IMG/VR virus record: IMGVR_UViG_3300017991_000056
Coordinates: 1-64,000 of that record
Source: a virus
Length of the DNA stretch: 64,000 bases
Reading direction: 5' to 3' (one strand)
The number at the start of each line of letters is the position of its first letter. The stretch's first letter is position 1. Positions 6,201-57,833 of this stretch are shown here, in pieces. Made by a program: the position numbers and the translations under genes. The notes beneath the pieces were generated by a model. The model was given only the letters and a program-made list of their open reading frames with translations. It did no database searches and had not been told where the DNA came from.

Positions 6201-6579
6201 CATCGATCCCGACACTTTCGAGCTTGCCTACATCGGTGATCTGACGGGGCTGTCGGGCTTGACGCCGGGTGAGGTGTACTACCTCTCGGACGTCACGGCT
6301 GGGCTGCTGACGACGACGGAGCCGACGGCCAACGGGACGGTCTCCAAGCCGCTCCTGATCGCGAACTCCTCGACGACCGGGGTCATGTTCAATTTCCGAG
6401 GCTTCGTCAATGGCGGGATAACGGGTACGACGCAGCAGCTGGCGGTGGTGACGGACATGGTGTACTATCCGTCCACCGGAAACTTCGACAAGATATACAG
6501 GACGATCACGTTCACGGGCTCGATAGGCGCGCAGGGTGCCCAGACAGTGTTCACGGCGACCGGCTGTCAGGGTGGTTGA
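1..6579 (+). CDS. Giant Gly-X-Gln collagen-like fibre protein, 5' end outside window
   Basis: The frame is open from base 1, so the true start lies upstream. About 2,000 residues are Gly-X-Gln triplets in which X is often Phe, Trp, Asn, Val or Leu, with Arg-Gly interruptions such as VRGFQG. Four cassettes with the core [14 protein letters not shown], ending [11 protein letters not shown], punctuate the run near 205-363, 1477-1632, 3633-3792 and 5452-5613. The run ends near 6045 and is followed by about 175 non-collagenous residues predicted to be beta-rich ([31 protein letters not shown]), a fold common at phage fibre tips. The family role is a trimeric tail or head fibre used for host or surface binding. 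Attachment to the tail is inferred from family behaviour and from the two related genes at 11978 and 34622. Confidence 0.85.
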
Positions 6580-11977: not shown

Positions 11978-14900
11978 ATGAGCGGTTCAGCATTTCCATT
12001 GCAGAGGGTCGGCCCTCAGGGCTGGCAGGGTCTTCGTGGCTGTCAGGGTCTCGTCGGAGACCAGGGTCTTCGCGGGTTTCAAGGCAATCAGGGCGTCCAA
12101 GGTCTCCAGGGCTGGCAGGGTTGGCAGGGCAACCAGGGCGACCAGGGCCTACAGGGGACGAACCCGGGGCCGCGCGGCTTTCAGGGCCCTCAGGGCAACC
12201 AGGGCTGGCAGGGAGCTCAGGGTCCCCAGGGCCTTCGGGGCGTCCAGGGTTTCCAGGGAGCTCGTGGCCTTCAGGGTAACCAGGGCCTTCAGGGCTGGCA
12301 GGGTCCCCAGGGTCCCCAGGGCCTTCGGGGCGTCCAGGGTTTCCAGGGAGTTCGTGGCCTTCAGGGTAACCGGGGCTTTCAGGGCTGGCAGGGTCCCCAG
12401 GGCCTGCGGGGCTTCCAGGGAGCTCGTGGCTTTCAGGGTAACCAGGGCCTTCAGGGCTGGCAGGGTCCCCAGGGCCTTCGGGGCTTCCAGGGCTTCCAGG
12501 GAGCTCGTGGCTTTCAGGGCAACCAGGGCTGGCAGGGAGTTCAGGGTCCCCAGGGTTTCCAGGGCAACCAGGGCCTCCAGGGTCCTCAGGGTTCCCAGGG
12601 CAACCAGGGTCCTATTGGCATTACGGGGGTGACAAGGTTCTACGGTCTTCCCGAGACTGTGTTGCTGCTCCATATGGATGGGGTAGATGAATCAACAGAC
12701 TTCCCTGACTCTGCCCTCGGGGGGAATGCGCCTCACACGGTGACCGCAGTGGGGGATGCCCAGGTGGATACCGCCTTGAAGGAGTATGGGTCGGGATCGG
12801 CACTGTTTGATGGCAATGACTATCTGTCCGTGCCGGATAGTGACGACTGGGACTTTGGCACAGGCGACCTGACGATGGAGGCTTGGGTCTACCTGGAGGA
12901 TAACATTGCCAATAACAATGAACAGCCTGTTCTGGGCATATACGTAGACAGCAGCAACTATTGGGGCCTCTGGCACGACGGCACCACCAATGGGTGGACC
13001 TTCAAGATAAAAGTGGGGGGTGCGTACCTACTGAATGACCTTCTCAAGCAGGGAGGGTCAACCATAACCAAGCAAACCTGGACCCACGTAGCTGTTGTTC
13101 GAGATGGCAATGATTGGTATATCTATGAAGATGGCACCCAGGTTGCCTCCACCACTGGCGACATAACTTTTCCAGATTTCTCCACGACCGACCTGTACAT
13201 AGGAAGGTTTGATCGGAATAGCAACACCCATATCAAGGGCAACATCGATGAGCTGAGAGTCACGAAGGGTGTTGCCGAGTACACCGGAGCTTTTACGCCT
13301 GCCGGGCCATTCTCTCCATACCTCCAGGGCAACCAAGGCTTTCGTGGTTTCCAGGGCAACCAGGGCTGGCAGGGGATGGGTCTTCAGGGCCCGGGAGGCG
13401 CGACCGGCTCGGTTGGCGACCAGGGCGCGCAGGGCGTTGCGGGCAGTCAGGGGGTCGAGGGCGCGCAGGGCTATCAAGGGCCGCAGGGGGTCGGGGGGGA
13501 CCAGGGCTATCAAGGGCCGCAGGGTACCGCCGGAATGCAGGGTTGGGTGATGGATGAGTATGGGAACCTGCTTCCCCCCAATGACAACCAGGAAGACCTC
13601 GGCACGCAGGCGCGACGTGTGCGTTCTCTCTATCTTGGCCCGCAGAGTCTCCATCTTGGCTCCCAGACAGTCACCGAGAACGACGGCGAGCTGTATGTCG
13701 GCCTTCAGGTGATTCCCCGCATTCAGGACAGCGCCCGCGTCGGGGCCATAACGAAGGTCCTCTCGGCAGACAGGCTCGCCCCGAGAATCATTTACAACAG
13801 AAGCAACGAGATTCTCGCGACCGACAACGACAAGCTAGTCGCCGCCTACTACGATGCCAGCGGGTACGGAGGAAACGACGCCAACACCGTTCTTCTTCTC
13901 CATTTCAATGGCCCTTCGGGTTCCACCGAGATTGCCGATGACGCCCTGGGTGGGTCGGCCCCTCACGTCGTGACGGCGGTTGGCAACGCCAGAATCAGCG
14001 GTTCGCAGGTCAAGTTCGGGAGCGGCGCGATTTTCTTTGACGGTTCCGGGGACAATCTCGTCGCCGTGGACAGCCCCGACTTTGCCTTTGGCGCTGACAA
14101 CTTCGTTATCGACTTCTGGACATATGCCACTGGCTATTCGAACCAGAGGCTTTTCGGGCAGTACGAGAGCGCGGACAACTTCGTTTCGTGCTTCGTCGGC
14201 TCTGTTGGTCCGGAATTCCAGCTCAAGGTCAGTGGGGGTACCCTTATCAGTCTGTCGGATTCGGGGATTCCGTCGGCTGGCTGGCACCACTGGGCGATAC
14301 TGAGGAGTGCCAACACCTGGCGCATGATGCTGGACGGGGTGTCCATAGCGGCCACGTCGCAGGCTGGCACGTATCCAGACCTTGACGCGCCCTTCCTGAT
14401 AGGCGACGACACTCTCGGCAGCGGTACCCCGTTCTCCGGCTGGATGGACGAGTGGAGGGTTTCCTCGGACACGGACCGCGGGTGGGCTAGTGGTTTCACT
14501 CCTCCCGATCACGAGTACGAGGAGGCGGGCATCGTCCAGCGGTGGGCCATGCTGTCGACGAAGGTCACCGAGCTGGTAAAGGGTCCAGAGGGGGTCACGC
14601 CGGGCTACCTTCCGTCGTGGACGGGGAACCAGACCGTAAATCAGGGGTTTCAGGTCGTGTATCTCCTAGGGATACAGGGGAGCCAGGGGCAGGTGCCGAC
14701 CGCCCATGCCGTCACGGAGGCCATTGCCGCAGCGCAGAGTACTGGGCCGCAGGGAGCGCAAGGCTCGACAGGTGACACGGGTGCCGCGGGAGCCCAAGGA
14801 GTTGATGGTTCGCAGGGCGTTCAGGGTCCTCAGGGCCTCCGAGGTTTCCAGGGAGTTCGTGGCTTTCAGGGCTGGCAGGGCGTCCAGGGTGTTCAGGGAA

Positions 14901-15670
14901 ACCAGGGCAACCAGGGATTCCAGGGTCCTCAAGGCCTCCGTGGCTTCCAGGGTGTTCAGGGCAACCAGGGTGTTCAGGGAAACCAGGGCAACCATGGATT
15001 CCAGGGTCCGCAAGGCCTCCGTGGCTTCCAGGGTGTCCAGGGCAACCAGGGATTTCAGGGTCCGCAAGGCCTCCGTGGCTTCCAGGGTGTCCAGGGCAAC
15101 CAAGGCTGGCAGGGCGTCCAGGGTGTTCAGGGAAACCAGGGCAACCAGGGATTCCAGGGTCCTCAAGGCCTCCGTGGCTTCCAGGGTGTCCAGGGCAACC
15201 AGGGATTCCAGGGCTGGCAGGGAAACCAGGGTCCTCAGGGCAACCAGGGTTGGCAGGGATTTGGAGAAGAGGGAGTCCAGGGTCCGCAAGGGGACAAGCT
15301 GGCCATCGTCGAGACGTCGCAGGGATACCGGGCGCTCTACTGCATGGAGTCCCCGGAGGTGCTGTTCGTCGACGTGGTGAGGGTTGGGCATCGAGGCGAC
15401 CTCTCGACGCACGTGCTCGACGGGATTTTCGTGGAGGCGTGCGAGCCGGATTCCATATTCGTGATGTCGGTGGTGGCGGGGAGGCCGGTCGCTGTCTCGG
15501 CGAACGTGGAGGGCGAGATTCTGACGGTGAGGACGGAGAGGGAGGTTGACACGAAGGTGGTCGTGGCGGTAGTCGGGACGAGGAAGGGGGCCGCTGGTCG
15601 AAGGTTCGAGGGGCATACCGAGGAGGAGGCGAAGCGGAACGCCTCGTTCTGGAACGGCTGGAGGGGCTGA
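11978..15670 (+). CDS. Collagen-like fibre protein with two LamG-like domains
   Basis: This is a 1,230-residue protein with a GAGGAG site 7 bases before its ATG. It has an N-terminal Gly-X-Gln run (about 10-215). A concanavalin/LamG-like beta-sandwich follows (about 225-445; [43 protein letters not shown]). Next come a short collagen cassette, a linker ([12 protein letters not shown]) and a second LamG-like domain (about 640-850; [27 protein letters not shown]). A second collagen run and a unique C-terminal domain of about 125 residues complete it. LamG domains in phage fibres commonly bind glycans. The gene lies between the glycosyltransferase and the sulfotransferase. It is a probable receptor-binding or surface-adhesion fibre. 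Confidence 0.85.
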
Positions 15671-17181: not shown

Positions 17182-17206
17182 AGGGCGTGACAGGTAGGAG
17201 GTGGAT

Positions 17207-18415
17207 ATGGCGGACATGAGGAATGTGCTTATTCGCGGCGTGGTCGAGCTGACGCGCAGCAAGGAGTTCTACGGCCATGTCGTCCAGCAGTTTGAGAAGG
17301 TTTACCTGGAGGGGGACTCCGGAATGGCCAGGAAGGTGCAGACGGCCGCTGTCGGCCGCGTTCCGGGCGACCGCTTCGTCAAGCTGTACCTGAACAAGGA
17401 CTACTTCGGGTCGATCTACGACGACCATGGCGCCGACAAGGGGTGGGAGTACGTCCTCGGGGCCATGGAGCACGAGACGTTGCACGTGGTCCTGGACCAT
17501 CTCTTCCTGGAGTTCGAGGACGAGGTGAGGGGAGGGGTCGCCGTCGACTGCGTGGTCAACCAGCTGATTCCGAAAAGCAGGGTCATGGACGCGTGGGCGC
17601 ACCCCATCAAGTACGGCCTGCCGGAAGGCAAGTCGTCGATCTGGTACTACAAGAACCTGGCCGGCAATTCCGAGTTCCAGAAGCAGCTGGCGTCGGGGGC
17701 GTTCGGGCCCGGAGGCGTCATGGAGTGGCTGAGGAGCTCGCATGGCCTGTGGGGCGACGTGGGGAAGGACGAGCTGGCCCACGAGATCATGAAGGACATA
17801 ATCCGGAAGGCGAGGGACATGTGCGACGGGAACTACGGGGACATTCCCGGGTGCGTCGCCGAGAGTATCGAGGAGCTCCTGAGGCGAAAACCTCCGAGGA
17901 TTTGCTGGGGGAGGGTCCTGAGGATGTTCTGCGCTTCCGCGATAGAGAGCGTCCTGGACTACACGATGAAGAGGGTGAGCAGGAGGTTCGGCACCCGGCC
18001 GGGGACGGTCCACGGCGACGTCCTGGACGTGGCGGTCATCGTTGACACGTCGATGTCGATCGACAAGTGGCAGGTGGCGGCCTTCTTCAACGAGATCGAG
18101 TGGATACGCCGGAACGGGGCGGTCATAACCGTCTACGAGGCGGACGCGAGCCTGAAGAGGACCTACCGCTACACCGGCAGGTTCGACGGCGAGGTTCATG
18201 GGCGTCGCGGGACGTGCCTGGACCCGGCCCTGGAGGAGGCGGAGAGGAGGCGCCACGACGCGGCGATCTACTTCACCGACTTCGAGGCGCCGGCGCTGAA
18301 GAGGAGATACGGGCTCCCCGTGCTGTGGGTCCTGACGAGGGACATGGCCAAGGAGGAGCGGCCCTGTGACTGGGGCACGGTTATCGTGCTGGACGAGCCG
18401 AGAAGGGTGGCGTGA
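17207..18415 (+). CDS. VWA-like metallopeptidase domain protein
   Basis: This is a 402-residue protein. The zinc-peptidase signature HETLHVVLDH spans residues 89-98. A C-terminal von Willebrand A-like domain carries VDTSMS (D280, S282, S284) as the MIDAS-type metal site. This matches the predicted metal-dependent peptidase/VWA family (COG3864-like), which often works beside AAA+ ATPases of the MoxR type. The start is ATG at 17207, 5 bases after AGGAGG, under a sigma70-like -10 box. The AAA+ gene in this window (53514) is of Bcs1 type and is distant. A role in protein remodelling or early host takeover is inferred, not shown. Confidence 0.7.
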   Translation: MADMRNVLIRGVVELTRSKEFYGHVVQQFEKVYLEGDSGMARKVQTAAVGRVPGDRFVKLYLNKDYFGSIYDDHGADKGWEYVLGAMEHETLHVVLDHLFLEFEDEVRGGVAVDCVVNQLIPKSRVMDAWAHPIKYGLPEGKSSIWYYKNLAGNSEFQKQLASGAFGPGGVMEWLRSSHGLWGDVGKDELAHEIMKDIIRKARDMCDGNYGDIPGCVAESIEELLRRKPPRICWGRVLRMFCASAIESVLDYTMKRVSRRFGTRPGTVHGDVLDVAVIVDTSMSIDKWQVAAFFNEIEWIRRNGAVITVYEADASLKRTYRYTGRFDGEVHGRRGTCLDPALEEAERRRHDAAIYFTDFEAPALKRRYGLPVLWVLTRDMAKEERPCDWGTVIVLDEPRRVA

Positions 18416-23645: not shown

Positions 23646-25511
23646 ATGCCGAACAACCTCATAGCCCAGATCGCCAACGAGTTCGTCTCGGGGCCGACCG
23701 AGGATGTCGTCGACATCGTCACCTTCGCGGAGGCGCCCTGGGGGCTGGGGCTCTCCCTGTACCCGGTTCAGAAGTTCATCTTGCGGTGCCTGTACGGGAT
23801 GGCGCTGGATGGAAGCTCCAAGACTATCAAGATCAACGACGTGGTCAACGAGCATCTTCTCTACACCTTCACCGAGAAGCAGTTCCTGAAGTGGCTCTAC
23901 GAGGAGGGGCGCTGCAACACGGACGAGGTCGAGGGCAAGATATTCCAGGAGCTCGTGCTGGTGCTCGGGCGCCGCGGGACAAAATCCAGCCTGGCCTCGG
24001 TCCTCTCCAACTACGAGCTCTACAAGCTGGTTCGGAGGGGTGACCCGTCCGAGTTTTATGGCTTCCCGCGTCAGACGGAGATCGCGATCTTGAACGTCGC
24101 GCCGACCGACGAGCAGTCCGGGATCGTCTTCAACATGATCCAGGCGATGGCGATGCAGTGCCCCTACCTGAGGGACCGCTCGCTCAACCAGACGATGACC
24201 TACTTCAACCTTCAGACCGACGCCGACATGAAGGCGCACGGCAAGCCGAAGGCGAGCCTGGTCTCCATCGCGGGCGGCTGCTCGTCGAATTCCCTCCGCG
24301 GCAGGAACGGGCTGACGGTCATCATGGACGAGATGGCGTTCTTCATCGACAACGGGGGACGCTTCTCCGGCGACGAGGTGTACAAGGCCCTGACGCCGTC
24401 CATCGCCGACTTCAGGCGCGACGGGAAGGTCCTCTGCCTGTCGAGTCCGTATGCCAAGTTCGGAAGGTTCTACGAGCGCTTCGACGAGTCCTTCCAGGAG
24501 CCGGACTACACGCTGATGTTCAAGATGTGGAGCTCGATGGTCAACCCGTCGATCCCGTCTGAGATTCTGAAGGCCGCGAGAAGGCGCGACAGGGTCTCGT
24601 TCATGTGCGAGTACGGCGGGGAGTTCTCCGACCGGGTGACGGCCTGGATCGACGACGAGCACGAGTTCAGGAGGTGCGTGAGCAAGAGGCCGGCCCAGTC
24701 CAGGGGGACCGGGGACGTGGAATACTTCTACGGCGTCGATCTCGGCTTCCGGAACGACGGGACGGCCATCGCGATCGTCCATCGGGAAGGGCAGAGGATC
24801 GTCCTGGACTACGCCGACGTCTGGTTCTCGGGCTCCTCCGACGTGTGGGAGTTCGACAACTCGATCTACTCCGGGTGCAACAAGTACGCCAAGCACGAGC
24901 TTCTCAGGATGGCCGACATCGTCGAGGAGCTCAAGTGCCTGGCCAGGTGGTTCCCGCCGAAGGCCGGGGTCTTCGACCAGTCCAACGGCTACGGCCTCGC
25001 CGAGCTGCTCGGGAAGGCGAAGCTGACGAGCCTGGAGATGAAGCATTTCACGGACGCCCTGAACGACGAGGTGTACCGGCTCGTGAAGCACCTCTACGCC
25101 GGGAGGCTCGTGGAGATGTTCGACCATCCGGTTCTGATCCCCGAGATGCTGGCGCTGGAGGCGGAGAGGAAGAGCGGCCTCAACAACAGGATGGTTGCCG
25201 GGTCCGAGGTGAGGGGCAAGGTGATGGTCCAGGCTCCGAACAGGAGGGGCGCGCACGACGACATTTCGGATGCCTACGTGAGGGCGGTGTGGTCTTGCCA
25301 CAACCACACCCACGGGAAGCCGCAGAACGTGGCGGTCGGGGCTGGCGGGCGTCTTGGGGCGCACGGGGATGTCAGGATTCCCGGGCAGCCGTTCGCCAGG
25401 CAGGAGAGCCAGGCTTCCTTCATGATGCGCAAGGTCAAGATGCACGGCGCCCATCCGAGAGGACTTCACAAGATCAAGAGGCAGCGTGGGCCAGTCCGGA
25501 ACATGAGGTGA
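23646..25511 (+). CDS. terL: Terminase large subunit
   Basis: This is a 621-residue packaging motor and nuclease. The ATPase domain has a Walker A-type LGRRGTKSS (about 107-115) and a Walker B VIMDE (D228, E229). The C-terminal RNase H-like nuclease starts at FYGVDLGFRNDG (D365), with a later acidic segment around AGVFDQSNG and a conserved HDDISDAY near residue 541. Length and motif order fit the family. It is followed directly by the topoisomerase-protease gene and, further on, the portal. Confidence 0.95.
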   Translation: MPNNLIAQIANEFVSGPTEDVVDIVTFAEAPWGLGLSLYPVQKFILRCLYGMALDGSSKTIKINDVVNEHLLYTFTEKQFLKWLYEEGRCNTDEVEGKIFQELVLVLGRRGTKSSLASVLSNYELYKLVRRGDPSEFYGFPRQTEIAILNVAPTDEQSGIVFNMIQAMAMQCPYLRDRSLNQTMTYFNLQTDADMKAHGKPKASLVSIAGGCSSNSLRGRNGLTVIMDEMAFFIDNGGRFSGDEVYKALTPSIADFRRDGKVLCLSSPYAKFGRFYERFDESFQEPDYTLMFKMWSSMVNPSIPSEILKAARRRDRVSFMCEYGGEFSDRVTAWIDDEHEFRRCVSKRPAQSRGTGDVEYFYGVDLGFRNDGTAIAIVHREGQRIVLDYADVWFSGSSDVWEFDNSIYSGCNKYAKHELLRMADIVEELKCLARWFPPKAGVFDQSNGYGLAELLGKAKLTSLEMKHFTDALNDEVYRLVKHLYAGRLVEMFDHPVLIPEMLALEAERKSGLNNRMVAGSEVRGKVMVQAPNRRGAHDDISDAYVRAVWSCHNHTHGKPQNVAVGAGGRLGAHGDVRIPGQPFARQESQASFMMRKVKMHGAHPRGLHKIKRQRGPVRNMR

Positions 25512-25512
25512 C

Positions 25513-26610
25513 GTGTTGCCGAAGCCGATGACCAAGGAAGAGCAGACGCGTCGCCGGAAGAAGACCGACTCGGTCAGGAGGCTGGCCCAGAAGATATTGG
25601 GTCTCCGCCAGAAGGTGACGAGGGACCTGAAGTCTGACGACGAGAAGACTCGCCTGACGGCTCTCGCCGTGGCGCTCATGGACAAGACGGCCGAGAGGGT
25701 CGGGAACGAGGCGTCGGCCAGGGACGGCCACGTCGGCGTCACCGGGTTCAAGAAGAGCCATGTCGAGGTCGACGGCAACACGGTCAGCCTGAAGTACACG
25801 GGAAAGTCGGGCGTGAAGCAGGAGAAGCAGTTCTCGGACGAGGCCGTGGCGAAGGTCGTCAAGGAGTGCCTGAGGAACTGCAAGGGCGACTCGCCGATCC
25901 TCGTGACGTCGGACGGCTTCAAGGTGAGGGCCGACAAGGTCAACCGGTACCTCAAGGAGTTCGAGGTCACGGCGAAGGACATCCGGGGCCACGCGGCCAA
26001 CGACCTGGTCGTGAGGCTCCTGAGGGGCTCCATGGTCCCGTCGGACCCGGACGAGCGGAAGAAGAAGTTCCGCGAGGTGATGAAGACGGTGGCCGAGAAG
26101 GTCGGGCATCAGCAGGCGACGCTGAAGAGGCACTACTTGCTGCCGGGCTTCGAGGAGCAGTATGTCGGGAAGGGCACCGTGCCCTCCGTGAAGGAGGCGT
26201 CGGTGTCCCAGGTGGTGCTCGAGAGGCTTTTGTCCGTCAGGGTGGCGCGGGGTCTCCTGCGGGGGCGGATGGAGGAGATGGTTGCCGACCTGGTCGGCGA
26301 AATATCCGGCAAGGTCGACAGGGCGTGCAGGGAGGTGGTCGGGCGCGAGTCCGAGATGCCGGACGAGATCGACGTCGAGATCGACGGGGTGCCGACAGGC
26401 AAGGTAGCCCAGTTCGTGCCGCCGGGCTCGGGACCCGCGGTGCTGCGGGTGAGCTCGAAGCTGTTCGACGAGCCCGGCAAGGTCAGGATAGCCGTGACGC
26501 ACGAGCTCTGTCACGCGGCGCTCGGGCATGAGAGGAACGCGGGCTCGCATGACGAGGAGTTCCAGAAGCTGGCGCGGGCAATGGGCGTGCCGGAGAGGAT
26601 GAGGGACTGA
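25513..26610 (+). CDS. Topoisomerase IB catalytic domain fused to SprT-like metalloprotease
   Basis: This is a 365-residue protein from GTG at 25513, one base after the terminase stop, with GAGGTG upstream. Residues 45-218 match the catalytic core of type IB topoisomerases, and all five catalytic positions can be placed: R62 (ERVGN), K98 (TGKSG), R158 (AKDIRGH), H199 (KVGHQ) and Y208 (KRHYL). A helical linker covers 225-280. Residues 281-365 form a zinc-protease module with HELCH (H330, E331, H334) and a second histidine in GSHDEEFQKLA (H346), as in SprT/Spartan proteases. Spartan-type proteases digest DNA-protein crosslinks, including trapped topoisomerases, so the fusion could be self-resolving. 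It may act on packaged DNA. The domain calls rest on visible residues; function is inferred. Confidence 0.75.
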   Translation: MLPKPMTKEEQTRRRKKTDSVRRLAQKILGLRQKVTRDLKSDDEKTRLTALAVALMDKTAERVGNEASARDGHVGVTGFKKSHVEVDGNTVSLKYTGKSGVKQEKQFSDEAVAKVVKECLRNCKGDSPILVTSDGFKVRADKVNRYLKEFEVTAKDIRGHAANDLVVRLLRGSMVPSDPDERKKKFREVMKTVAEKVGHQQATLKRHYLLPGFEEQYVGKGTVPSVKEASVSQVVLERLLSVRVARGLLRGRMEEMVADLVGEISGKVDRACREVVGRESEMPDEIDVEIDGVPTGKVAQFVPPGSGPAVLRVSSKLFDEPGKVRIAVTHELCHAALGHERNAGSHDEEFQKLARAMGVPERMRD

Positions 26611-26611
26611 C

Positions 26612-27226
26612 GTGGGCGACCAGGTATACAAGCTGAAGGATGGCGAGGAGGTTCCTGTCGAGCCGGCTGACAGCCTTGTCGCCACTGGCTGGCTTCAGGG
26701 CACGTGGGTCCGGTACGCGTCCGGCGCCCCGACCTTCTCGCCAGGCGTCATCGGCGTGGTGGAGAGGTCCGACGGCGAGGGTGTCATGTGCGGGTTCCTG
26801 ATCCGGGGCCCGCAGCACGTGACGCCGATGCAGCGGCTCAGCGACATGTGGGACGCGGACATCCTCCAGCGCCCGGGCGGCGACAGCGTCTCGGACTGGA
26901 CGGCCCACGATCCGGGAGGGCCGCTCCACTTCGACAACGAGAAGCAGCTCCAGAGGCTGGGCAGCCGGGTGGTGACGATGTACGTGCCTCCGACCGGCTA
27001 TTTCAGATGGTACACGTTCGAGACCGAGGACCTGGCGGAGAGGACGACCCCGGGCACCGGGGCGCCGCTGGTCTATGTGCCGAACGACAAGCTGTACGTG
27101 AGCGACCAGGGCCTTCTGACGAACGAGCAGGAGGGCGTGGCGCATGCGTGGACGGGATACGTGGTGGCCAGGGCGACCTCCGACCAGGAGGGCAGCTTCC
27201 TGGTTGTCACGGCGGCTGTCGGATGA
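26612..27226 (+). CDS. Putative virion structural (decoration-like) protein
   Basis: This is a 204-residue beta-rich protein from GTG at 26612. The segment DKLYVSDQGLLTNEQEG resembles the decoration-protein-like segment of the gene at 51482 (AQGFLTNETSSEG), pointing to a similar beta-barrel. It lies between the topoisomerase-protease and the portal-upstream gene. A head or neck structural role is likely. No enzyme motif is seen. Confidence 0.5.
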   Translation: MGDQVYKLKDGEEVPVEPADSLVATGWLQGTWVRYASGAPTFSPGVIGVVERSDGEGVMCGFLIRGPQHVTPMQRLSDMWDADILQRPGGDSVSDWTAHDPGGPLHFDNEKQLQRLGSRVVTMYVPPTGYFRWYTFETEDLAERTTPGTGAPLVYVPNDKLYVSDQGLLTNEQEGVAHAWTGYVVARATSDQEGSFLVVTAAVG

Positions 27227-27256: not shown

Positions 27257-27787
27257 ATGGATGCGAGTTTGCTTGAGAGCGCGAGGGCGGCCGAGGAGTC
27301 GCTGAGGAGGCGGGAGATCGAGGGCGTCGTCGAGGGCGTGCCGGAGGACCACCCGCTGAAGGATGCGATGCGGAAGAACCGGCTCCGGGCGCAGGACCTT
27401 GAGGGACTGCCGGAGGGCCATCCGCTCCTGGCTGCCTTGGCGGCGGCCAAGGAGCGTCACGATCTCGGCGAGGCCATGGGGCGGGAGCAGGTTCGGACGT
27501 CCGAGGTCCATAAGGCGAGGAAGATAGAGCGTCGCGAGGCCAGGGAGCGTGAGAGGGCGACTGAGCGAGAGGGCAGAAGGATGGCGGCCGACGCGGCCGA
27601 GGTGGTGAATCGGAGCCTGGACAGGGCGACGGAGGCAGTCAAGGTCCTGGTGGGGGCCTTGGAGGAAGGAGCGGGACCGTTGTCGGCCATGCCGGAGTCT
27701 AGGGTCAAGATCAGGCGACTGGAGAGGTTGGCGAACGCCGCATTGTCGGGGTTCGCCTCTTCCCGCGTCAGGGTTAGGAGGACTTGA
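27257..27787 (+). CDS. Hypothetical coiled-coil protein upstream of portal
   Basis: This is a 176-residue highly charged, helical protein. Residues 75-135 are rich in Arg/Glu (KARKIERREARERERATER) and predicted coiled coil. Two PEDHPL/PEGHPL repeats lie near residues 35 and 55. The start is ATG at 27257. It directly precedes the portal gene and could be a head-assembly or adaptor protein; no family is assigned. Confidence 0.55.
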   Translation: MDASLLESARAAEESLRRREIEGVVEGVPEDHPLKDAMRKNRLRAQDLEGLPEGHPLLAALAAAKERHDLGEAMGREQVRTSEVHKARKIERREARERERATEREGRRMAADAAEVVNRSLDRATEAVKVLVGALEEGAGPLSAMPESRVKIRRLERLANAALSGFASSRVRVRRT

Positions 27788-27789
27788 CC

Positions 27790-29754
27790 ATGGCCCGTGG
27801 GCAGATAGTGAGAACTCCGGTGAGGGACGCGGATATCAGAAGCCTGTCCGGGAACGGGTTCAGGGGCGGCGTGAGGCGCCCGGCCGTGACCACCGGGAAG
27901 GCTGATCCGATGAAGGCGAGGATGGCGAAGGTGGCCACGGGCACGGCCATGGGCGGCAGCATGTTCAGGAACGCCGGGATGCTGGTGGACTTGACGCCGA
28001 ACAGGCCGTACACGTCCGGGTACGCCCTGGAGGCCTACCGGACGTCCTACGCCAACGGCCTCTCGGACATGTCGGGGACCTTCGACGTCCCGACCTACTT
28101 CGTTCAGATGAACGAGCAGAACGGCGGGATGATCTACTGGCCCGTGACCCTTAGGGAGAAGTACCAGTGGTATAGATACTGGACTAGGAGCGATGCCTAC
28201 GTGGGCCGCGCGCTGGAGATGCTCGCGGACCTTCCGATGAGCAAGCTCACGCTGAACATCCCCAAGCACGTCCCTGAGGACCGGCGCGAGGAGATGAAGG
28301 ACTTCTTCACCTACCAGCTGGAGGTGGTCAGGGGCTTCGAGCTCTGCCAGAGCATCCTGTGGGAGCTCAACATGATCGGGAACTGCCATCTCTTCCACGA
28401 ATGGAACGATGTCAGGAAGATGTGGAAGAAGGTGGTCATGCTGCCGCCCGAGGAGGTCTACGTCTTCCAGTACCCGTTTTCCGACACGAAGCGGGTCGAG
28501 TACAGGCCGGAGAGGCTCATCTCGCTGATCGAGGGGGAGCGCGGCCATGGCGGCGTCTCGGCCTCCTCGCTTCCGGGCTCGTCGTCGAAGTGCGACAACG
28601 CGGACCTGGACCAGAAGATCGTCGAGAACATCCCCGAGGAGATCGTCGAGATGGTCAAGAACGAGGGGTGCATCGTCATGGACAGCGATCCCATGACCGG
28701 CTCCTTCGTCCACACGATCTCCCGGCGCCGCTCGCCGTACCTCGATCTCGGGTCGTCCGTCCTGGAGCGCGTGCTGGTGCCGATGCTCCAGAAGGAGCAC
28801 TTCCGGTACACCCAGCTCAGCCTGGCGAGCCGGAACATGACGCCGAAGAACCTCATCACCGCCCCGGGCCTGACGCCGGAGCAGGTCGACGAGCTCAGGA
28901 CGCAGGTCGACCTGTCCTTCATGGACCCGGAGTACAGCATCATAACCAACTACGACGTGACGTGGGAGCAGATCGGCGCCCAGGACCGGCTGCTGGACCT
29001 GGACAGGGAGTACGAGAGGATCGAGAACCAGGTCTTCGCGGCGCTCGGGGTGACGAGGGAGCTCCTGACGGGGGAGACCACGTTCTCGGGGAGCAAGATC
29101 ACGGTCGAGATCCTGAACAGCATGTTCCTGCTGACGCGGGAGATACTGACCGACTACATCGAGCGGCAGCTGTTCGTGCCGATCTGCGAGAGGCGGGGAT
29201 GGTTCACGGAGGACAAGAACGGGGTGAAGAAGTATTGGCACCCGCGCGTGGGCTTCAACCGTCTCACGATCCGGGACAATGCCGAGGTCTTCGACAGCCT
29301 GTTCCAGCTCTACCAGAAGGGCAGCCTCGACGTCGATGTCATCCTGGAGCTGTTCAACATCGACAGCGAGGAGCAGGCGGTGAAGCTCAAGGGGCAGTTG
29401 TTCACGGTCAAGGACGCCAACTTCAACAGGCTCGTCGAGGAGGTGTGCAGCGACGTCGGGCGCAATCTCGTGGAGAACAGCAACGTGGCCGAGAAGATCG
29501 CCACGTACCTGGGGCTGGAGTTCGACGGGCCGGCGGAGGACGAGGGTGGTTTCGGCGGCGGTTTCGGGGGAGACGACCAGCAGTCGTTCGGCGAGTCCGG
29601 CGGTGCCGGAGGGGCCGAGGCTGACGCGCAGCCGGCGGAGGAGCCGGGCGGGGAGGGCGGCAGGTCGACCGACGACATGGCCGTGGCCATAGCGGACGCG
29701 TTGCCGGAAGGCGTGGACGAGGAAGATGTCAGGAGCGTCGTGGAGGCGCTTTGA
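27790..29754 (+). CDS. Portal protein
   Basis: This is a 654-residue protein; ATG at 27790 lies 8 bases after AGGAGG. Features typical of portals: an N-terminal region leading to REKYQWYRYWTRSDAYVGRAL, a central NITPKN-type loop (SRNMTPKNLITAPG), a helical LDREYERIENQVFAALGV segment and the ETTFSG-SKITVEILN motif before a long stem helix. The C-terminus is Gly-rich and acidic. It lies two genes after the topoisomerase-protease and just before the HD-domain protein. It forms the dodecameric DNA channel at one capsid vertex. Confidence 0.85.
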   Translation: MARGQIVRTPVRDADIRSLSGNGFRGGVRRPAVTTGKADPMKARMAKVATGTAMGGSMFRNAGMLVDLTPNRPYTSGYALEAYRTSYANGLSDMSGTFDVPTYFVQMNEQNGGMIYWPVTLREKYQWYRYWTRSDAYVGRALEMLADLPMSKLTLNIPKHVPEDRREEMKDFFTYQLEVVRGFELCQSILWELNMIGNCHLFHEWNDVRKMWKKVVMLPPEEVYVFQYPFSDTKRVEYRPERLISLIEGERGHGGVSASSLPGSSSKCDNADLDQKIVENIPEEIVEMVKNEGCIVMDSDPMTGSFVHTISRRRSPYLDLGSSVLERVLVPMLQKEHFRYTQLSLASRNMTPKNLITAPGLTPEQVDELRTQVDLSFMDPEYSIITNYDVTWEQIGAQDRLLDLDREYERIENQVFAALGVTRELLTGETTFSGSKITVEILNSMFLLTREILTDYIERQLFVPICERRGWFTEDKNGVKKYWHPRVGFNRLTIRDNAEVFDSLFQLYQKGSLDVDVILELFNIDSEEQAVKLKGQLFTVKDANFNRLVEEVCSDVGRNLVENSNVAEKIATYLGLEFDGPAEDEGGFGGGFGGDDQQSFGESGGAGGAEADAQPAEEPGGEGGRSTDDMAVAIADALPEGVDEEDVRSVVEAL

Positions 29755-29766
29755 CGGGAGACGGAA

Positions 29767-32700
29767 ATGGATTTCGAGGTGGTCAGGAACAGCGTGGCGA
29801 GAGGTTTCGGGGTGGTCCTTCGCGTGGCGAAGGATTTCAAGACCCAGAACGCCTTGGACGAGTACCTGAAGAGCCATCCTGGCGCCAAGAGGACCGACCA
29901 CGGGGTGGTCTCCCCCGCCGAGCGCGACTTCCAGAAGAAGGAGCAGCGCGAGCGCGAGCAGGACGACCGCGCCTCCGCCGGCGCCGAGACGAGGAAGGAT
30001 GACGAGAAGAAGCAGGAAGGTGGCGCCCCGGCAGGGGAGCGGGGCGACGCCGAGCCGCGGCAGCCGCAGCGGGGCGACCCGTCGCAGCCGGAGGACGTCG
30101 GGGAAGGGATGATAGTCCTTCTGGACCAGGAGCCGGGCTCGAAGGAGGCTCGCGTGGCGGAAGCCTTCTTGGCGTCCGCGAGGATGGCGGCGCAGTGGGA
30201 GCCCGTGCGTGGCAACCCGAACCGTCAGCGCAGGCGCAAGCCTGGTGGCGGATACGCCTATCGTGACAAGCCGGCCGACGACCAGGGGAAGGCCAGGGAC
30301 GAGACGGGTCCGGCCAAGGGCCCGGCCAAGGACGGGGCTCCGGCGCCCGCCAAGGGCGCGCCGATGGAGGTGAGGCTGAAGCAGGTCCTGGGCGAGGACC
30401 CGGGCGACGGGTGGGGGCAGCATCCCATCGCCGAGCATCAGTTGACGCACGGGGTCCAGGTCAGGTTTCCGGACGGGAGCTCCAAGAAGTACGGGGAGCT
30501 GTCCGACGACGAGAAGGCCAGGGTCCAGAAGGCCCTGGCAGACGGCAATGCGGCGACCAGGGGGATGAACGACTACTCCAAGGTGGACGTCGAGACCCTG
30601 AAGGCCAACATGGCCCGGAACCTGGGCTTCTACGACTCGGGCTCGGAGGAGAAGGCCAACTCGGACGCGTCGCCTGTGACGAAGGAGAACGCGAAGCAGG
30701 TGGCGGACTCCATCAGGGAGAATGCCAAGAGCGTGCTGGAGAAGTATTCGAAGGCCATGTCGAGCGTGTCGAGGCCGATGGCCGAGGCCTATGTCGACGA
30801 CATGGCCTCCGCCGTGGAGGAGGCGGCCAGGGACGGCTCGTTGGGCGACGTGTCCCAGGCCGACGTCGACGCGTTGGTTCGCGAGGACGTGAGGAGGATG
30901 CTGCACCAGGAGGTCGAGACCAGGCGCCGGTCGCTTGGGGACCACGGCATCCGGCACGCGACGACCAACGCGGCGAACACGGAGGCGATGCTGGGGGAGC
31001 TCCAGAAGGCCGGGCTGCCGGTCACGGGCAAGGACAAGCTGATGGCCATGACGATCCAGGCCAACCACGACGTCGGGTACACGGTCGGCGACCCGGCCAC
31101 AGGCTTCAAGGGGAGCCACAAGGACAACTCCGAGGAGCTCTTCAACCAGGAGAGGGGCAGGTTCGACAAGGTCTTCGGGGCCGATTCCATGGACGACATG
31201 GCGAAGATCATCAAGACGCACGACGCGAACGACGTGGACTGGGACAAGGACCCGGTCGGGTCGGCGGTCAGGCTCTCCGACTCGACGGCTCTCTTCGGGC
31301 AGGAGAAGGTCCAGGAGCTGTTCGTCCGGCAGCCGAGGACCATGGAGCTGGCCTGCAAGCTGAGGCTGGCGGCGGAGGCGGACCCGGGGAACGACCAGCT
31401 GATCGAGTCGATCAAGAAGCAGATGCACCAGGCCGTGGAGGACGGCGACTTCGACGAGGTCGACAAGAAGCTCCTGAACGACCAGGTGAGCGAGATGGGG
31501 GAGAAGGGGTTCAGCGCCTCGAAGGACATCCTGTCGAGGTTCAGCGGCCGCATCGACGACTTCAGCTTCGACAAGGATCGGAAGGTCATGACGGTGGGGA
31601 TGAGATACTCGCCGGAGGGCCAGACCGTCGACATGCTGTTCGGGGACAAGCTGGCGGCAAAGAAGTTCAACAGCTTCATCGAGGACATGGGCGGCAAGCC
31701 GGTGGAGGGGCAGGCCCGTGGCGAGATGGAGTTCGAGAGCAACGGCAAGCCGGCCTTCAGGCTGGAGATGCGCGGCTTCGACGACGATCCGGCGGAGACC
31801 GCCCATACCGAGGCCATGAAGGGGTTCGTGGAAAAGACGGCCAGGGCCGGGTTCAACTCGGCGAAGAGGAGCATCATCCCGCCTCCGGGCATGGTCGAGG
31901 ACGACGTGGACAAGGCCTTCGAGTACGTGAAGAAGGAGAGGGGCAAGTTCAACGACGCGGAATGGGCCTCCATGGAGAAGCTGTTCAAGGACGGGCGAGG
32001 AAATCCCGCGTCCATCGTCGAGGCGCTCGGTAAGTGGCCCCTGCTGGAGTCGGAGAAGGCGTATCTCGGGACGTCCGGGGCCGCGCCGTCCGGAGGTGCT
32101 GGCGACGTGTCTGGAAAGGCCGACGACCTGATGGGCAGGATCAAGGAGTTCGAGGGAGAGGACAAGGACCGGGTCGTCAAGCTGGTCGAGCGGCTCGAAG
32201 CTGTGAAGGACAAAATGATGGGCAAGGCGGCGTCGATTCCGAGACATGCGGCCCGGATGCTCCTGGCGTCCGTGGCGACCAAGGGCGTCTTCAGGCGGCT
32301 GGCGCAGCTCTCCGACGAGGAGAAGGCGGAGGTCGTCAAGAAGGTGATGGAGAAGATTCAGGGTGGCGGGCAGGAGGCAGAGGGAGATGCGCCGGCGGAT
32401 GCCGGAGACGCCAAGGGGCTCGACGCCATGGAGAAGGAGGTCGAGGCCCTGGAGCAGGAGGCCGCTGCGGACGTGGCGCCTCCGGAGGGCGGCGACGAGG
32501 CACCGGAGGCAGACGCGCCAGGGCCAGAGGAAGATGTCCCGGAGGCAGATGCTCCGGCCATGTCCGACGACGACGGGGAGGGTGGCCTCCTGAAGGTCGT
32601 CGAGGACCTGGCTGCCGAGGTTGAGCAGATCAGGTCCGACGGCAGGGTCGATCCCTCCGAGGTGCTCGGCCTGTTCGACAACATGATGCAGATGGTGACG

Positions 32701-33006
32701 TTCCTGGTTGACACGAAGGCGCCGGCCAAGAGGCGGCGCAGGCGCAAGTCGTCGCTCGGCGTCGTCGACTTCGAGATGATGGTGGGTCGGGTGGCCGCGT
32801 CGTTCGCGGCGACCAGGGGCTTGCAGGTCCGCCGGAAGGACAAGGACACGATGGCGGACACGGGCGGCGTCTCCAAGGGCCGCGAGCGGGAGCCGGAGTT
32901 GAAGCCCCCGCGCGAGGACGGCAAGAAGACGCACCGGACCAAGGACAAGCCTGCCGGCGAGCGGGACCGGGATACTGACAGCGATCCCGATATTCGGAAG
33001 GATTGA
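29767..33006 (+). CDS. Large portal-adjacent protein with HD phosphohydrolase domain
   Basis: This is a 1,079-residue protein. Residues 40-200 are charged and disordered. Residues 390-515 carry an HD-domain metal site: H393/H397 (GDHGIRHATT), H434-D435 (NHDVGY), H451 (GSHKDNS), H485 (KTHDAND) and D505 (RLSDSTALF). HD domains hydrolyse phosphoester bonds in nucleotides or signalling molecules. The remainder is helical, with an acidic Pro/Ala-rich stretch (about 900-940) and a basic tail. Two short helical motifs, VAEAFLASARMA and VGRVAASFAATRG, resemble motifs in other proteins here. Its position after the portal suggests it is packaged in the head. Substrate unknown. Confidence 0.65.
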   Translation: MDFEVVRNSVARGFGVVLRVAKDFKTQNALDEYLKSHPGAKRTDHGVVSPAERDFQKKEQREREQDDRASAGAETRKDDEKKQEGGAPAGERGDAEPRQPQRGDPSQPEDVGEGMIVLLDQEPGSKEARVAEAFLASARMAAQWEPVRGNPNRQRRRKPGGGYAYRDKPADDQGKARDETGPAKGPAKDGAPAPAKGAPMEVRLKQVLGEDPGDGWGQHPIAEHQLTHGVQVRFPDGSSKKYGELSDDEKARVQKALADGNAATRGMNDYSKVDVETLKANMARNLGFYDSGSEEKANSDASPVTKENAKQVADSIRENAKSVLEKYSKAMSSVSRPMAEAYVDDMASAVEEAARDGSLGDVSQADVDALVREDVRRMLHQEVETRRRSLGDHGIRHATTNAANTEAMLGELQKAGLPVTGKDKLMAMTIQANHDVGYTVGDPATGFKGSHKDNSEELFNQERGRFDKVFGADSMDDMAKIIKTHDANDVDWDKDPVGSAVRLSDSTALFGQEKVQELFVRQPRTMELACKLRLAAEADPGNDQLIESIKKQMHQAVEDGDFDEVDKKLLNDQVSEMGEKGFSASKDILSRFSGRIDDFSFDKDRKVMTVGMRYSPEGQTVDMLFGDKLAAKKFNSFIEDMGGKPVEGQARGEMEFESNGKPAFRLEMRGFDDDPAETAHTEAMKGFVEKTARAGFNSAKRSIIPPPGMVEDDVDKAFEYVKKERGKFNDAEWASMEKLFKDGRGNPASIVEALGKWPLLESEKAYLGTSGAAPSGGAGDVSGKADDLMGRIKEFEGEDKDRVVKLVERLEAVKDKMMGKAASIPRHAARMLLASVATKGVFRRLAQLSDEEKAEVVKKVMEKIQGGGQEAEGDAPADAGDAKGLDAMEKEVEALEQEAAADVAPPEGGDEAPEADAPGPEEDVPEADAPAMSDDDGEGGLLKVVEDLAAEVEQIRSDGRVDPSEVLGLFDNMMQMVTFLVDTKAPAKRRRRRKSSLGVVDFEMMVGRVAASFAATRGLQVRRKDKDTMADTGGVSKGREREPELKPPREDGKKTHRTKDKPAGERDRDTDSDPDIRKD

Positions 33007-34621: not shown

Positions 34622-37600
34622 GTGCTCGTTTACGAAGTAGTCAAGGAGTTCTACCTTGAGCAGATACGACAGACGGTCACTGTCGGGTCTGTAATCTATT
34701 GTGTGGAGAGCGACGGCCGGGCCTATGTCGCCATTGATCCTCCTCCCGTCCCGGACCCTCTTGCCAACTTCGTCGGCGGCATTGAGCTGGGTTGCGAGGG
34801 GGACTGCTTCTGCGAGTGGGTGGCGCGTCCCGACGGCCAAGAGTTTACCGAATACAGGAACACCCTTCCAGACCCGCCTCCAGACGGAGAGGGAGCAACA
34901 GGTCCCCAAGGGCCGCAGGGGAGTGGCGGCGGCCCCACCGGACCTCCAGGCCCCCAGGGTCCTCCGGGTGGCGCCACCGGGCCTGTCGGGCCTCAGGGAT
35001 TGCAGGGAGCCCAAGGCAGCCAGGGCTGGGAGGGCGAGCTTGGCCAACAGGGCTACGTCGGGGACCAGGGGGTTGTCGGCCCCCAGGGCCCGGGGCCGGT
35101 TGGCCCGCAAGGCAATCAGGGATGGCAGGGCGCCGGCCTTCAGGGGCCGGTCGGAGGGCAGGGGTCGCAGGGGCTTGTCGGGTCCGACGGGAGCCAGGGG
35201 AGCGACGGACCCACAGGAGTCGGTCTTCAGGGGCCCATTGGCCATCAGGGCGCAGATGGGTTGCAAGGAAGCGTCGGAGCCCAAGGGCCAGATGGGTTTC
35301 AGGGCTGGCAGGGAGCCGCCGGAGCCGATGGCACTCAGGGTGCCCAGGGCAATCAGGGAACTCGGGGCACCCAGGGCAATCAGGGTGGTCAGGGCGTCCA
35401 GGGCTTCCAGGGCTGGCAGGGCGCCCAGGGTCCGCAGGGCGTTGAGGGTCTTTCGGGCTGGCAGGGACCTTCGGGCAACCAGGGCTTGCAGGGTGTTGGG
35501 GATCGCGGTTTTCAAGGTGATGCCGGAAGCGTTGGCGCGACCGGCGACCAGGGGTCCCAAGGCTATGCCGGGTCGCAGGGGAAGATCGGACTCCAGGGAG
35601 TCGACGGGGCAACGGGTGTCGGGTTCCAAGGTTATGCCGGGGCACAAGGCTTGGATGGTCCGGTTGGGCCGCAGGGGTTTCAGGGCGATGGCCATCAAGG
35701 CCCGCAGGGCTCTCGGGGGCAGACGGGCGCGGACTCGACGGTGCCTGGGCCTCAAGGTTCGATCGGGGTGGGGCTTCAGGGGCCGCAGGGGAGCGCGGGA
35801 GCGACAGGTGTCGGGACGATTGGCGCGCAGGGCTCTCGTGGGCCGCAGGGCTACGATGGGGAGCGCGGCTTCCAGGGCTTGAAGGGTGCCGTCGGCGAAG
35901 ATGGGGTGCAGGGACCGGTTGGGGCTCAGGGCTTCCAGGGCGCTCAGGGCTTTGGCGTTCAAGGTTCGCGTGGTCCTCAGGGCGACACCGGCTTTCAAGG
36001 CACGCAAGGTCAGGGAGCTCAAGGCCCGCAGGGTACTCAGGGTGCCGACTCGGCGACACCGGGTCCGCAGGGGCCTCAGGGTGATGGCTATCAGGGTCCG
36101 CAGGGCTCTCAGGGTTCTGGCGCTGATGGTTCCCAGGGGCCGCAGGGTCCTGAAGGGGTTCAGGGGTCAGAGGGTGACGGTGTCCAGGGCGCCCAGGGCG
36201 TGGTTGGCTCTCAGGGACACCAGGGAGTGGTCGGTTCCGGGACTCAGGGGTTTCAAGGTTCGGACGGAACGGGTCTTCAAGGGGTGGTTGGCCCTCAGGG
36301 AGGCCAGGGGCTCACGGGTATCGGCGTTCAGGGTCCGCAGGGGATCGTCGGACAGGATGGAGTTCAGGGAGGCCAGGGCGAGCAGGGGGCCACCGGAGCC
36401 GAGGGGGTAGGAGTACAAGGGCCTGTTGGTAGCCAAGGGCCTCTTGGCAGTCAGGGTTCGCAGGGAAGTGGGGCTCAGGGCGCTCAGGGTCCGGTTGGCT
36501 TGACAGGGGTCGGAGCACAGGGAGCCGTGGGTCCGCAGGGAACAGGCGGGAGCCAGGGAGTTCCTGGGGTTCAGGGCCCGTTGGGGCCTCGGGGCCTTCA
36601 GGGTGCCCAGGGTCTTGAAGGCGTTCAGGGTTCCGCGGGCGCGACGGGGGTCGGGGTTCAGGGGCCTGTTGGCGTTCAGGGCGTGACGGGAAATCAGGGC
36701 CCGGTTGGCGCCGTTGGCGGTTTCGGGCCGCAGGGCTTGCAGGGATGGCAGGGCAATCAGGGCGTGGCTGGACAGGATGGCTCTCAGGGCGTGGTTGGCT
36801 CTCAGGGTGATCGGGGCTCGACGGGCGTCGGTGTTCAGGGGCCGCAGGGATTGGACGGCCAGGACGGCGTTCAGGGGCCTCAGGGGGCCGCAGGAGACGC
36901 AGGGGCGACCGGGGCTGGGTTCCAGGGTCCGCAGGGCTTGGAGGGCCAGGGCGGGGCACAGGGGGCTCCTGGGACGCAGGGATGGCAGGGTTCCGGTCTT
37001 CAGGGTCCGGTTGGCTTCCAGGGAGTTGTCGGCCAGGACGGGGCTCAGGGCTCGGTTGGCTTCCAGGGCGTTGTCGGAGCCCAGGGCCATCAGGGGGCCA
37101 CCGGTGTCGGGGTGCAGGGCGATTCCGGTATTCAGGGGTCGGATGGCCAGGACGGGGCTCAGGGTGCCCAGGGCGTCGCCGGACAGGACGGATTGCAGGG
37201 GCCGGCTGGCGCTCGGGGCTATCAGGGCGATGTGGGATCGACCGGGGCCGACGGCGTTCAGGGCCCGGCTGGTCCGCAGGGCATCGCCGGCCAGGACGGG
37301 GCCATCGGCTTCCAGGGTGTTCGTGGTTTCCAGGGAGATGTCGGGTCCACGGGAGCCGCCGGGGTCGGCGTTCAGGGCACTCAGGGAATCGAAGGCCAGG
37401 ATGGCGTTCAAGGGGCTCAGGGACCGCAGGGCGAGATCGGCTTGCAGGGTGTTGCCGGGCAGGACGGGTCGCAGGGAGCTCAGGGGCTTGCCGGACAGGA
37501 TGGCGACCAGGGCTTGCAGGGTGTTGCCGGGCACGACGGGAGTGACGGTTCGCAGGGCTCGGCTGGGGTTCAGGGATTTCAGGGTCGAGATGGGCAGGAT

Positions 37601-46975: not shown

Positions 46976-47203
46976 ATGGACGGCAAGATGATCGCGAGCG
47001 AGCTTCTCCTGGCGGCGAGGGACCTGGTCGGCGGCAAGGACGACAAGTGCGGCGAGAAGGGCTGCATCCGGCAGGTCGACGGGAAGTGGCGCGTGATGTC
47101 GGGCAAGACCGGCAAGCTGTGGCCCGCAAAGTACGACTCCGAGGGGTCCGCCAAGGACGCCCTGGACGCGTGGCACGCCAGCAGGTTCAAGGGAGCCAAG
47201 TGA
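46976..47203 (+). CDS. Small protein with recurrent IASELLLAAR motif
   Basis: This is a 75-residue protein; ATG at 46976 lies 5 bases after AGGAGG. Its N-terminal helix MDGKMIASELLLAARDLVGG closely resembles that of the protein at 62793 (GIRLASELVTLAREIAAK). The remainder has two cysteines (CGEKGC) and KWRVMSGKTGKLWPAKYD. Its stop overlaps the start of the intein-containing gene. Confidence 0.6.
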   Translation: MDGKMIASELLLAARDLVGGKDDKCGEKGCIRQVDGKWRVMSGKTGKLWPAKYDSEGSAKDALDAWHASRFKGAK

Positions 47204-52027: not shown

Positions 52028-52888
52028 ATGGCAGTTGACAACCAGACCAAGCAGGAAATCATTTCCCAGCACATCCGCACGGCAGCCGGCCGCGCTCGCC
52101 TCGCTGCGAGCATGATTCAGCCGCTCAGGCGGCGCAGGGACTACACGAGCGTAGGGAGAAAGGCGTTTTACGTCGAGGCGTTGCCCGATGGCGCCCTGCC
52201 TATCTACGACAAGGACCCGAACGTGGTGGCCTACGTCATCGGCGAAGAGGGCGAGAACATCGTCTCGGTCGCGAAGCCGAAGCGCGTGATGTTCCCGCTG
52301 TTCGAGATCGCCTCGAACCCCGAGATCCAGCTGACCGAGATCAAGCAGCGGCGCTTCGACCTGATCGAGCGCTCCGTCGACCTCGGCAAGAGCGAGATCC
52401 AGGCCGAGGAGGACCGCAAGGTCTTCGCCGTCATGGACGCGCTCGCGGCCGACCCGACGAACCCGAACCCGCCGATCCCCGTCACGGGCAACCTGACGGC
52501 GAACGCGCTGGCCGACGCCTTCGCGAACATCGAACGCACCGACATCCGTGTCGCGACCGTGTTCCTGAACGCCAAGGACTACGCCGACCTGCGCAAGTGG
52601 GACCGGGACACGCTGGACATCGAGACCCAGGCGATCCTGCTGAAGACCGGGCTCATGGCCACCCTCTGGGGCGCCAAGCTCATGGTCAGCCGCATCGTCC
52701 CCGAGGGAACGGTGTACTGCTGCGGCGAGGCCGAGTTCTTCGGCCGCATGCCCGTCCGGACGGAGCTCACGGTCCTGTCCGCCGACGACCCCAAGAACAG
52801 GCTGATCGGCTTCAGCATGTTCGAGCAGCTCGGAATTGGGGCGTATAACCCCTTTTCCCTGCAGGTCCTTCAAATTACTCGTGTTTGA
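52028..52888 (+). CDS. Major capsid protein
   Basis: This is a 286-residue protein after AAGGAGGG. It has an N-terminal helix (QEIISQHIRTAAGRARLA), a spine-like segment (RRFDLIERSVDLGKSEIQAEEDRKVFAVMDAL), an A-domain strand (RVATVFLNAKDYADLRKW) and a C-terminal strand region (GAKLMVSRIVPEGTVYCCGE). The order fits the HK97-fold capsid proteins of large phages. It is followed by a strong terminator and preceded by decoration and scaffold genes. Confidence 0.8.
   Translation: MAVDNQTKQEIISQHIRTAAGRARLAASMIQPLRRRRDYTSVGRKAFYVEALPDGALPIYDKDPNVVAYVIGEEGENIVSVAKPKRVMFPLFEIASNPEIQLTEIKQRRFDLIERSVDLGKSEIQAEEDRKVFAVMDALAADPTNPNPPIPVTGNLTANALADAFANIERTDIRVATVFLNAKDYADLRKWDRDTLDIETQAILLKTGLMATLWGAKLMVSRIVPEGTVYCCGEAEFFGRMPVRTELTVLSADDPKNRLIGFSMFEQLGIGAYNPFSLQVLQITRV

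Positions 52889-57756: not shown

Positions 57757-57833
<77 letters not shown>

Follow-up and report, generated by a model that had tools for sequence, protein, structure and literature searches.

A topoisomerase-protease gene at a phage head locus

The window analysed here covers positions 1-64,000 of a virus record of 133,403 bases. One of its genes encodes, in a single open reading frame, a predicted type IB topoisomerase (TopIB) core followed by a SprT-type metalloprotease domain (Table 1). The whole record contains one TopIB match and one SprT match, and both lie inside this gene. It begins 2 nt after the TGA stop codon of the terminase gene (25509-25511), and its GTG start is backed by a related contig (L039), where an ATG lies one codon off in the alignment ('MPKPMT..'). 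The first-pass annotation correctly placed the gene beside the terminase, between terminase and portal, although two further small genes precede the portal.

The 1079-aa protein encoded after the portal had no convincing assignment in a Pfam search. By eye, its C-terminal 'KPPRED' module looks like a module found behind the topoisomerase core in many relatives; in L006, a module of this type forms an ORF of its own. A 'DHGIRHAT...NHDVGY...KTHDANDVDW' region of the same protein looks HD-hydrolase-like, also by eye.

Table 1. Coordinates of the predicted features in the window, with the evidence for each.
Feature	Position	Strand	Evidence or remark
Large terminase, directly upstream of the fusion	23646..25511	+	phrog_9, E 1e-17
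TopIB-SprT fusion gene	25513..26610	+	GTG start, 365 aa, single ORF
Type IB topoisomerase catalytic domain, residues 8-222	25534..26178	+	PF01028; PDB 2f4q/3m4a
R62, catalytic Arg 1	25696..25698	+	invariant; aligned to variola TopIB
K98, catalytic Lys on beta hairpin	25804..25806	+	invariant; aligned to variola TopIB
R158, catalytic Arg 2, in TAKDIRG (KxxR)	25984..25986	+	invariant; aligned to variola TopIB
H199, in VGH	26107..26109	+	invariant; aligned to variola TopIB
Y208, predicted DNA-attacking tyrosine	26134..26136	+	invariant; aligned to variola TopIB
Linker, residues 223-232	26179..26208	+	pLDDT <50 at 230-239
SprT-type metalloprotease domain, residues 233-365	26209..26607	+	PF10263, AlphaFold2, Foldseek
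HELCH zinc site, residues 330-334	26500..26514	+	HExxH invariant, 16 sequences
H346, predicted third zinc ligand (SHDEEF)	26548..26550	+	invariant, 16 sequences
204-aa gene, same cluster	26612..27226	+	conserved (present in L003, L006)
176-aa gene, same cluster	27257..27787	+	
Portal protein	27790..29754	+	phrog_16240, E 1e-16
1079-aa protein after the portal	29767..33006	+	C-terminal 'KPPRED' module
Major capsid protein	52028..52888	+	phrog_2522, E 3e-54

Several other features of the window were recorded. A phage tmRNA (57319-57713, tag AKNILSFPGRPRLAIAA) is followed by a tRNA-Arg(CCT) (57757-57833), and three very large collagen-like genes are rich in Gly-x-x repeats (490-6579, 11999-15670, and 34622-39883). 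The gene at 17201-18415 encodes a vWA protein whose N-terminal part looks like a HETLH metallopeptidase (DUF2201, E 1e-16); its PHROG label of HNH endonuclease looks wrong. MoxR-vWA-peptidase pairs have been described (Iyer 2021, PMC7824862).

A TopIB-type core joined to a small zincin

Profile searches placed both domains above their Pfam cut-offs. Topoisom_I matched residues 11-207 with an E-value of 4.5e-28 and 98.6 bits (cut-off 23.7), and the closest solved structure by sequence is the TopIB of Deinococcus. The five catalytic residues proposed by the first-pass annotation (R62, K98, R158, H199, and Y208) are all at the positions it gave and are invariant in 70 relatives: these residues or their equivalents are unchanged throughout two alignments, one of 44 rows and one of 26 long ORFs. 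They coincide in an alignment with the catalytic residues of variola TopIB, and the R-K-R-H/N-Y set has the order and spacing of a type IB topoisomerase. The position of H199 is occupied by His in poxviruses and by Asn in Deinococcus TopIB.

TopIBs share their fold with tyrosine recombinases, the VGH...Y spacing is also found in recombinases, and XerH appears lower in the fold search, all of which could be taken as signs of a tyrosine recombinase or resolvase, instead of a topoisomerase, at the N-terminus. However, TopIBs are the best matches by both fold and sequence, by many orders of magnitude: Foldseek on the predicted structure ranked 3m4a first (E 5e-12), then the variola and human enzymes, with XerH-type recombinases well below and no recombinase ahead of any TopIB. 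Motif II is KDIR (in TAKDIRG), i.e. the KxxR of topoisomerases instead of the HxxR of recombinases, and the core-binding domain of recombinases is missing. The fold is thus not that of a recombinase only, and we dropped this reading as very improbable. By sequence and predicted structure, the N-terminal part is a TopIB-type catalytic core, putatively active.

Most type IB topoisomerases have a DNA-clamp domain outside the catalytic fragment, and poxvirus TopIB carries it at its N-terminus. It is absent here, since the Pfam core begins at residue 11 and neither Pfam nor the predicted structure places anything upstream. The protein resembles the poxvirus enzymes (vaccinia H6R, variola) in being a viral TopIB with the same catalytic set, including the His, and the vaccinia catalytic fragment 1a41 matches it; unlike them, it has a protease and lacks the clamp. 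Vaccinia H6R is counted among the known enzymes of the virion (PMC1540416), which is a precedent for a TopIB in virions.

The SprT-like profile matched residues 310-358 marginally (E 6.9e-6, 26.3 bits for a cut-off of 25.6), and 15 of the 16 subfamily members match it at E<0.01. H330, E331, H334, H346, and the aromatic F350 are invariant in 16 SprT-domain sequences, in agreement with the HELCH module and downstream histidine noted at first pass. The protease span proposed there (281-365) does contain the module, but the fold begins around residue 233, with a long helix. Modelled alone with AlphaFold2, the C-terminal domain reached a pLDDT of 89.5 and a pTM of 0.80, and the prediction puts HELCH within a small zincin fold, not outside a metalloprotease fold. 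Among solved folds, Foldseek placed two minigluzincins, selecase and abylysin, closest (probability 0.99-1.00, E 5e-3 to 1e-2), and several viral 'SprT-like' models match in BFVD. The full protein, modelled with a 29-row alignment, reached a pLDDT of 88.6 and a pTM of 0.62; its linker is weak at 230-239, and the relative placement of the two domains in the model is therefore unreliable.

Like SprT/Spartan (SPRTN), the domain has an HExxH followed by a distal His and then an aromatic residue, with a Pfam SprT-like match above cut-off. Unlike SPRTN, it is fused to a topoisomerase, has minigluzincins as its closest solved folds, and lacks the Spartan zinc-binding/ssDNA-binding subdomain: the protein ends 15 residues past F350 with no further domain. 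Because this subdomain is missing, we call the domain SprT-type and not Spartan proper. On profile and model evidence, the C-terminal part is a compact SprT-type zincin, putatively proteolytic. The SprT profile search also matched 14-3-3 and other chains, at chance level, and an NCBIfam search gave nothing useful. A 40-row alignment of standalone SprT proteins and topoisomerases misaligned the two and was left out of folding.

Relatives of the fusion and of its two parts

Single-sequence scans of viral and genome collections with P0001 gave no match, and a two-sequence alignment was required. The family scan then returned 101 relatives, of which 80 were retained; with three more from bacterial genome contigs, this led to 70 distinct ORFs. 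A tblastn search of phage records gave one real match (LR745208), and the same search of plasmids returned ordinary bacterial TopIBs only, in every case over less than 80% of the query.

The search for the same architecture in other phages produced four further contigs. TopIB and SprT are fused in a single ORF in 4 of the 70 relatives (L006, L039, L040, and L042), at 47-56% identity to the window protein. With the window included, the five fusions lie straight after the terminase and about 2.1-2.7 kb ahead of the portal, with one 126-aa ORF between terminase and fusion in L006. An assembly or annotation artefact joining two genes would have to have left the fusion uninterrupted in five distinct contigs, at the identities given above. 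We found no point in favour of such an error and dropped it, its probability being negligible given the recurrence in independent contigs. In the tree, the five fusions and the SprT-less L003, L005, L041, L043, and L119 form one strongly supported group of 10 rows. The presence of SprT in this group needs two changes, which would be explained by a single gain with a later loss or by two gains.

The wider TopIB family exceeds 100 genes, most of them located in the head modules of large environmental phages. A terminase, portal, scaffold-like, head-protease-like, or capsid gene was found in the fetched flank of 51 of the 70 relatives. The head-gene setting reported at first pass is conserved, and it points to TopIB being a recurrent head-module enzyme in large phages. 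The core is fused in relatives to HAD_SAK, 2'-5' RNA ligase, PolyA_pol, RNA_ligase, NUDIX, PAP2, GNAT, InPase, LPD1, DUF5661, and other HExxH types, in ORFs that reach 2834 aa. Giant head-locus ORFs (L017:4845-13349, L091, L066, L086, and others) string together InPase, zincins, TopIB, RNA ligase, PolyA_pol, and 2H, with RVAxR[FYW] motifs repeated at apparent domain borders. In the record itself, DUF5661, tag-bearing, and HAD-hydrolase-like genes stand side by side at 62152-64132, where the last gene crosses the end of the window; DUF5661 and HAD domains accompany TopIB in relatives too.

These fusions bring to mind the polyvalent proteins (Iyer et al. 2017, PMC5512222), which combine several enzymes per polypeptide in phage head loci, often with a zincin partner. 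The window protein, encoded by a portal-terminase phage and with at least two different enzymatic domains, shares this feature with them. It could be a small member of this class, in which unrelated payload enzymes are loaded in the head and delivered with the DNA, and the protease would attack host or defence proteins or free the payloads. This would agree with the variety of enzymes and HExxH types joined to the same TopIB core, and with zincins being the commonest hub domain of polyvalent proteins, for which a processing role has been proposed (PMC5512222). A link between TopIB and HExxH might only reflect protein length, but a strict zincin pattern is 5.5 times denser in the topoisomerase ORFs than in neighbouring genes, long ones included; since polyvalent proteins are generally rich in zincins, this density alone does not support the clearing of DNA adducts. 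LPD1 and DUF5661, which are of the polyvalent type, occur in the relatives L013 and L017. Unlike polyvalent proteins, the window protein is short, has two domains only, and lacks LPD or other known polyvalent-associated domains. TopIB and SprT were not found as domains in the parts of PMC5512222 that were searched. A payload role also does not account for the specific retention of a separate SprT gene next to TopIB in cultured jumbo phages (see below). We regard it as doubtful, although it is the strongest rival of the reading that we favour.

Two short motifs recur in these genes. The first, [RK][VIL]A.[RK][FYW], has 88 occurrences in the 70 topoisomerase ORFs, where shuffles give 2.3 (at most 8), and 45 in 950 neighbouring genes, where they give 5.1; it stands 17-48 aa before the TopIB core in 33 ORFs. 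The second, EL..[hydrophobic]A[RK], is related to it and was derived from L003/L005, i.e. outside the window's genome; within that genome it occurs 12 times (0.96 in shuffles) and 6 times at N-termini (0.13 in shuffles). L003 and L005, which are SprT-less sisters of the window gene, have the pattern at the topoisomerase N-terminus, and the window fusion has no such N-terminal tag. A slightly wider pattern was found within the first 110 residues of 10 genes, all at 46.9-74.3 kb, a span that holds 41 of the 131 called genes. Small proteins encoded at 46976-74217 of the record (46976-47203 and 62793-63473 in the window) share an N-terminal 'hARELhxMAREh' helix, which is restricted to this stretch and may be a head-targeting tag. 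We read both motifs as possible head-targeting or processing tags. An unsupervised motif search of the N-termini of the window genome was overfitted, with close likelihoods for real and shuffled sequences, and was discarded.

The SprT domain also occurs without a fused TopIB. A scan with it returned 14 loci (L105-L118) with standalone genes of 134-192 aa in T4-like phages, near gp22-like/gp23 and other head genes. The L106 SprT gene has gp23 (Pfam Gp23, E 5e-70) and the gene of a head maturation protease (phrog_207) as neighbours. An [LIV][LIVF]xE-type N-terminus is present in 51 of the 151 genes of these loci, compared with 12.7 expected (maximum 25), and in 10 of the 11 SprT genes as called; we take it to resemble the T4 capsid-targeting/gp21 cleavage signal. 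Many SprT neighbours in L105-L118 have a 'MKKRVIRLTESDLEKLVKKIIKEE' N-terminus, which is capsid-targeting-like. The location of these same-subfamily genes in the gp22-gp23 region would suit an auto-processing or prohead-maturation protease that cuts the linker, so that the free topoisomerase core enters the head, with packaging proteins as its substrates. The linker is flexible and of low confidence in the model, and P1 DdrB, with a C-terminal zincin, is processed before packaging (PMC5512222). Against such a role, the cluster in the relative L010 also encodes a head maturation protease of its own, and SprT-less topoisomerases occupy the same place in L003 and L041, and we consider it quite unlikely.

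In cultured jumbo phages, the two activities are found as neighbours. Phage-specific TopIBs have been reported in PaBG, Lu11, NCTB, Motura, and phiRSL1, and SprT-like proteins separately in the same phage group (Iyer et al. 2021, PMC7824862). In PaBG, gp084 (TopIB) and gp089 (SprT) lie in one gene run between the major head and tail sheath genes, and Lu11 and HRDY3 have the same layout, with both genes on the same strand in all three. The SprT and TopIB genes of PhiXhv-15 share 4 nt, and Ep032, a record without annotation, shows the same adjacent pair. The distance between the two matches is 4.2 kb in PaBG, 3.4 kb in Lu11, 3.8 kb in HRDY3, and about 1.2 kb in PhiXhv-15 and Ep032; these genomes are of 227-314 kb and have one detected SprT match each. 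Counterexamples are Motura and RHph_I42, where the two lie 12-25 kb apart, and NCTB, where the genome has no SprT match and another HELGH gene directly follows TopIB. The jumbo-phage TopIBs, whose catalytic domain is of the tyrosine-recombinase superfamily, share with the window protein a TopIB catalytic core in a large phage and, in PaBG, Lu11, HRDY3, and PhiXhv-15, an SprT-like gene close by. They differ from the window protein in their length (about 540-690 aa), N-terminal extensions, and lack of a fused protease, and their tblastn match to the window family is weak or none. That the two activities are fused in one lineage and closely linked in two more argues that they serve one purpose.

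A possible role for the pair

We favour, tentatively and with a probability of roughly 45%, the reading in which topoisomerase and protease work as a pair and the protease clears TopIB trapped on DNA. It is the most economical because known SprT proteases digest DNA-bound proteins and cleave themselves. In SPRTN, DNA activates the proteolysis of DNA-bound proteins, and the enzyme also cuts itself (PMC5128726); it is reported to repair topoisomerase 1 crosslinks in vivo (PMC10547559). The minimal TopIB domain would nick one strand and hold it through a 3'-phosphotyrosyl link to Y208 while the DNA relaxes, and would then reseal the nick. It could thereby relieve torsion or handle DNA at the portal during packaging, or act just after DNA entry. 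The SprT protease would digest topoisomerase trapped on DNA, be it its own or a neighbour's, and such clearing would keep the genome able to be packaged, ejected, or copied. The fusion is presumably made with the head proteins and perhaps packaged or injected; its location and the tags, from which this idea is drawn, suggest packaging in virions. We infer all of these steps, i.e. catalysis, the action of one domain on the other, its timing, and the packaging of the fusion.

The partnership between the two domains already proposed in the first-pass annotation thus gains from the neighbouring TopIB and SprT genes of cultured jumbo phages, but most relatives lack SprT, found in only 4 of 70, and many are fused to quite different enzymes. 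The T4-like SprT genes without a fused TopIB, the missing Spartan zinc-binding/ssDNA-binding region, the distances in Motura and RHph_I42, and NCTB without an SprT match also count against it. So does the PaBG virion, where gp84 and gp89 are missing among the 14 Coomassie-visible proteins (PMC7412058 Table 1; RefSeq gene numbering assumed). Since polyvalent proteins often contain zincins, most TopIB relatives are SprT-less, and SprT occurs without a fused TopIB, the payload and self-processing roles discussed above keep some weight. A broader proposal joins a self-clearing head TopIB with its metalloprotease, TopIB as the constant part of an RVAxR[FYW]-tagged class of head-delivered multi-enzyme proteins, and a pairing reached at least twice independently, by fusion and by neighbourhood. 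We think it unlikely that this combination holds in full.

The components are each known. As far as could be checked, the fusion and the gene linkage are apparently undescribed: we found no earlier description of a phage TopIB-SprT or TopIB-metalloprotease fusion in the open-access literature, in line with the first-pass annotation, which knew of none. Cells remove trapped topoisomerase 1 via a separate, tightly regulated protease. If the pair works as we suggest, this would point to topoisomerase trapping as a real hazard when long phage genomes are packaged or ejected or begin to replicate, and the fusion would offer a compact system to test how SprT recognises DNA-linked topoisomerase. The recurrent short motifs point to a possible tagging scheme for head-delivered enzymes.
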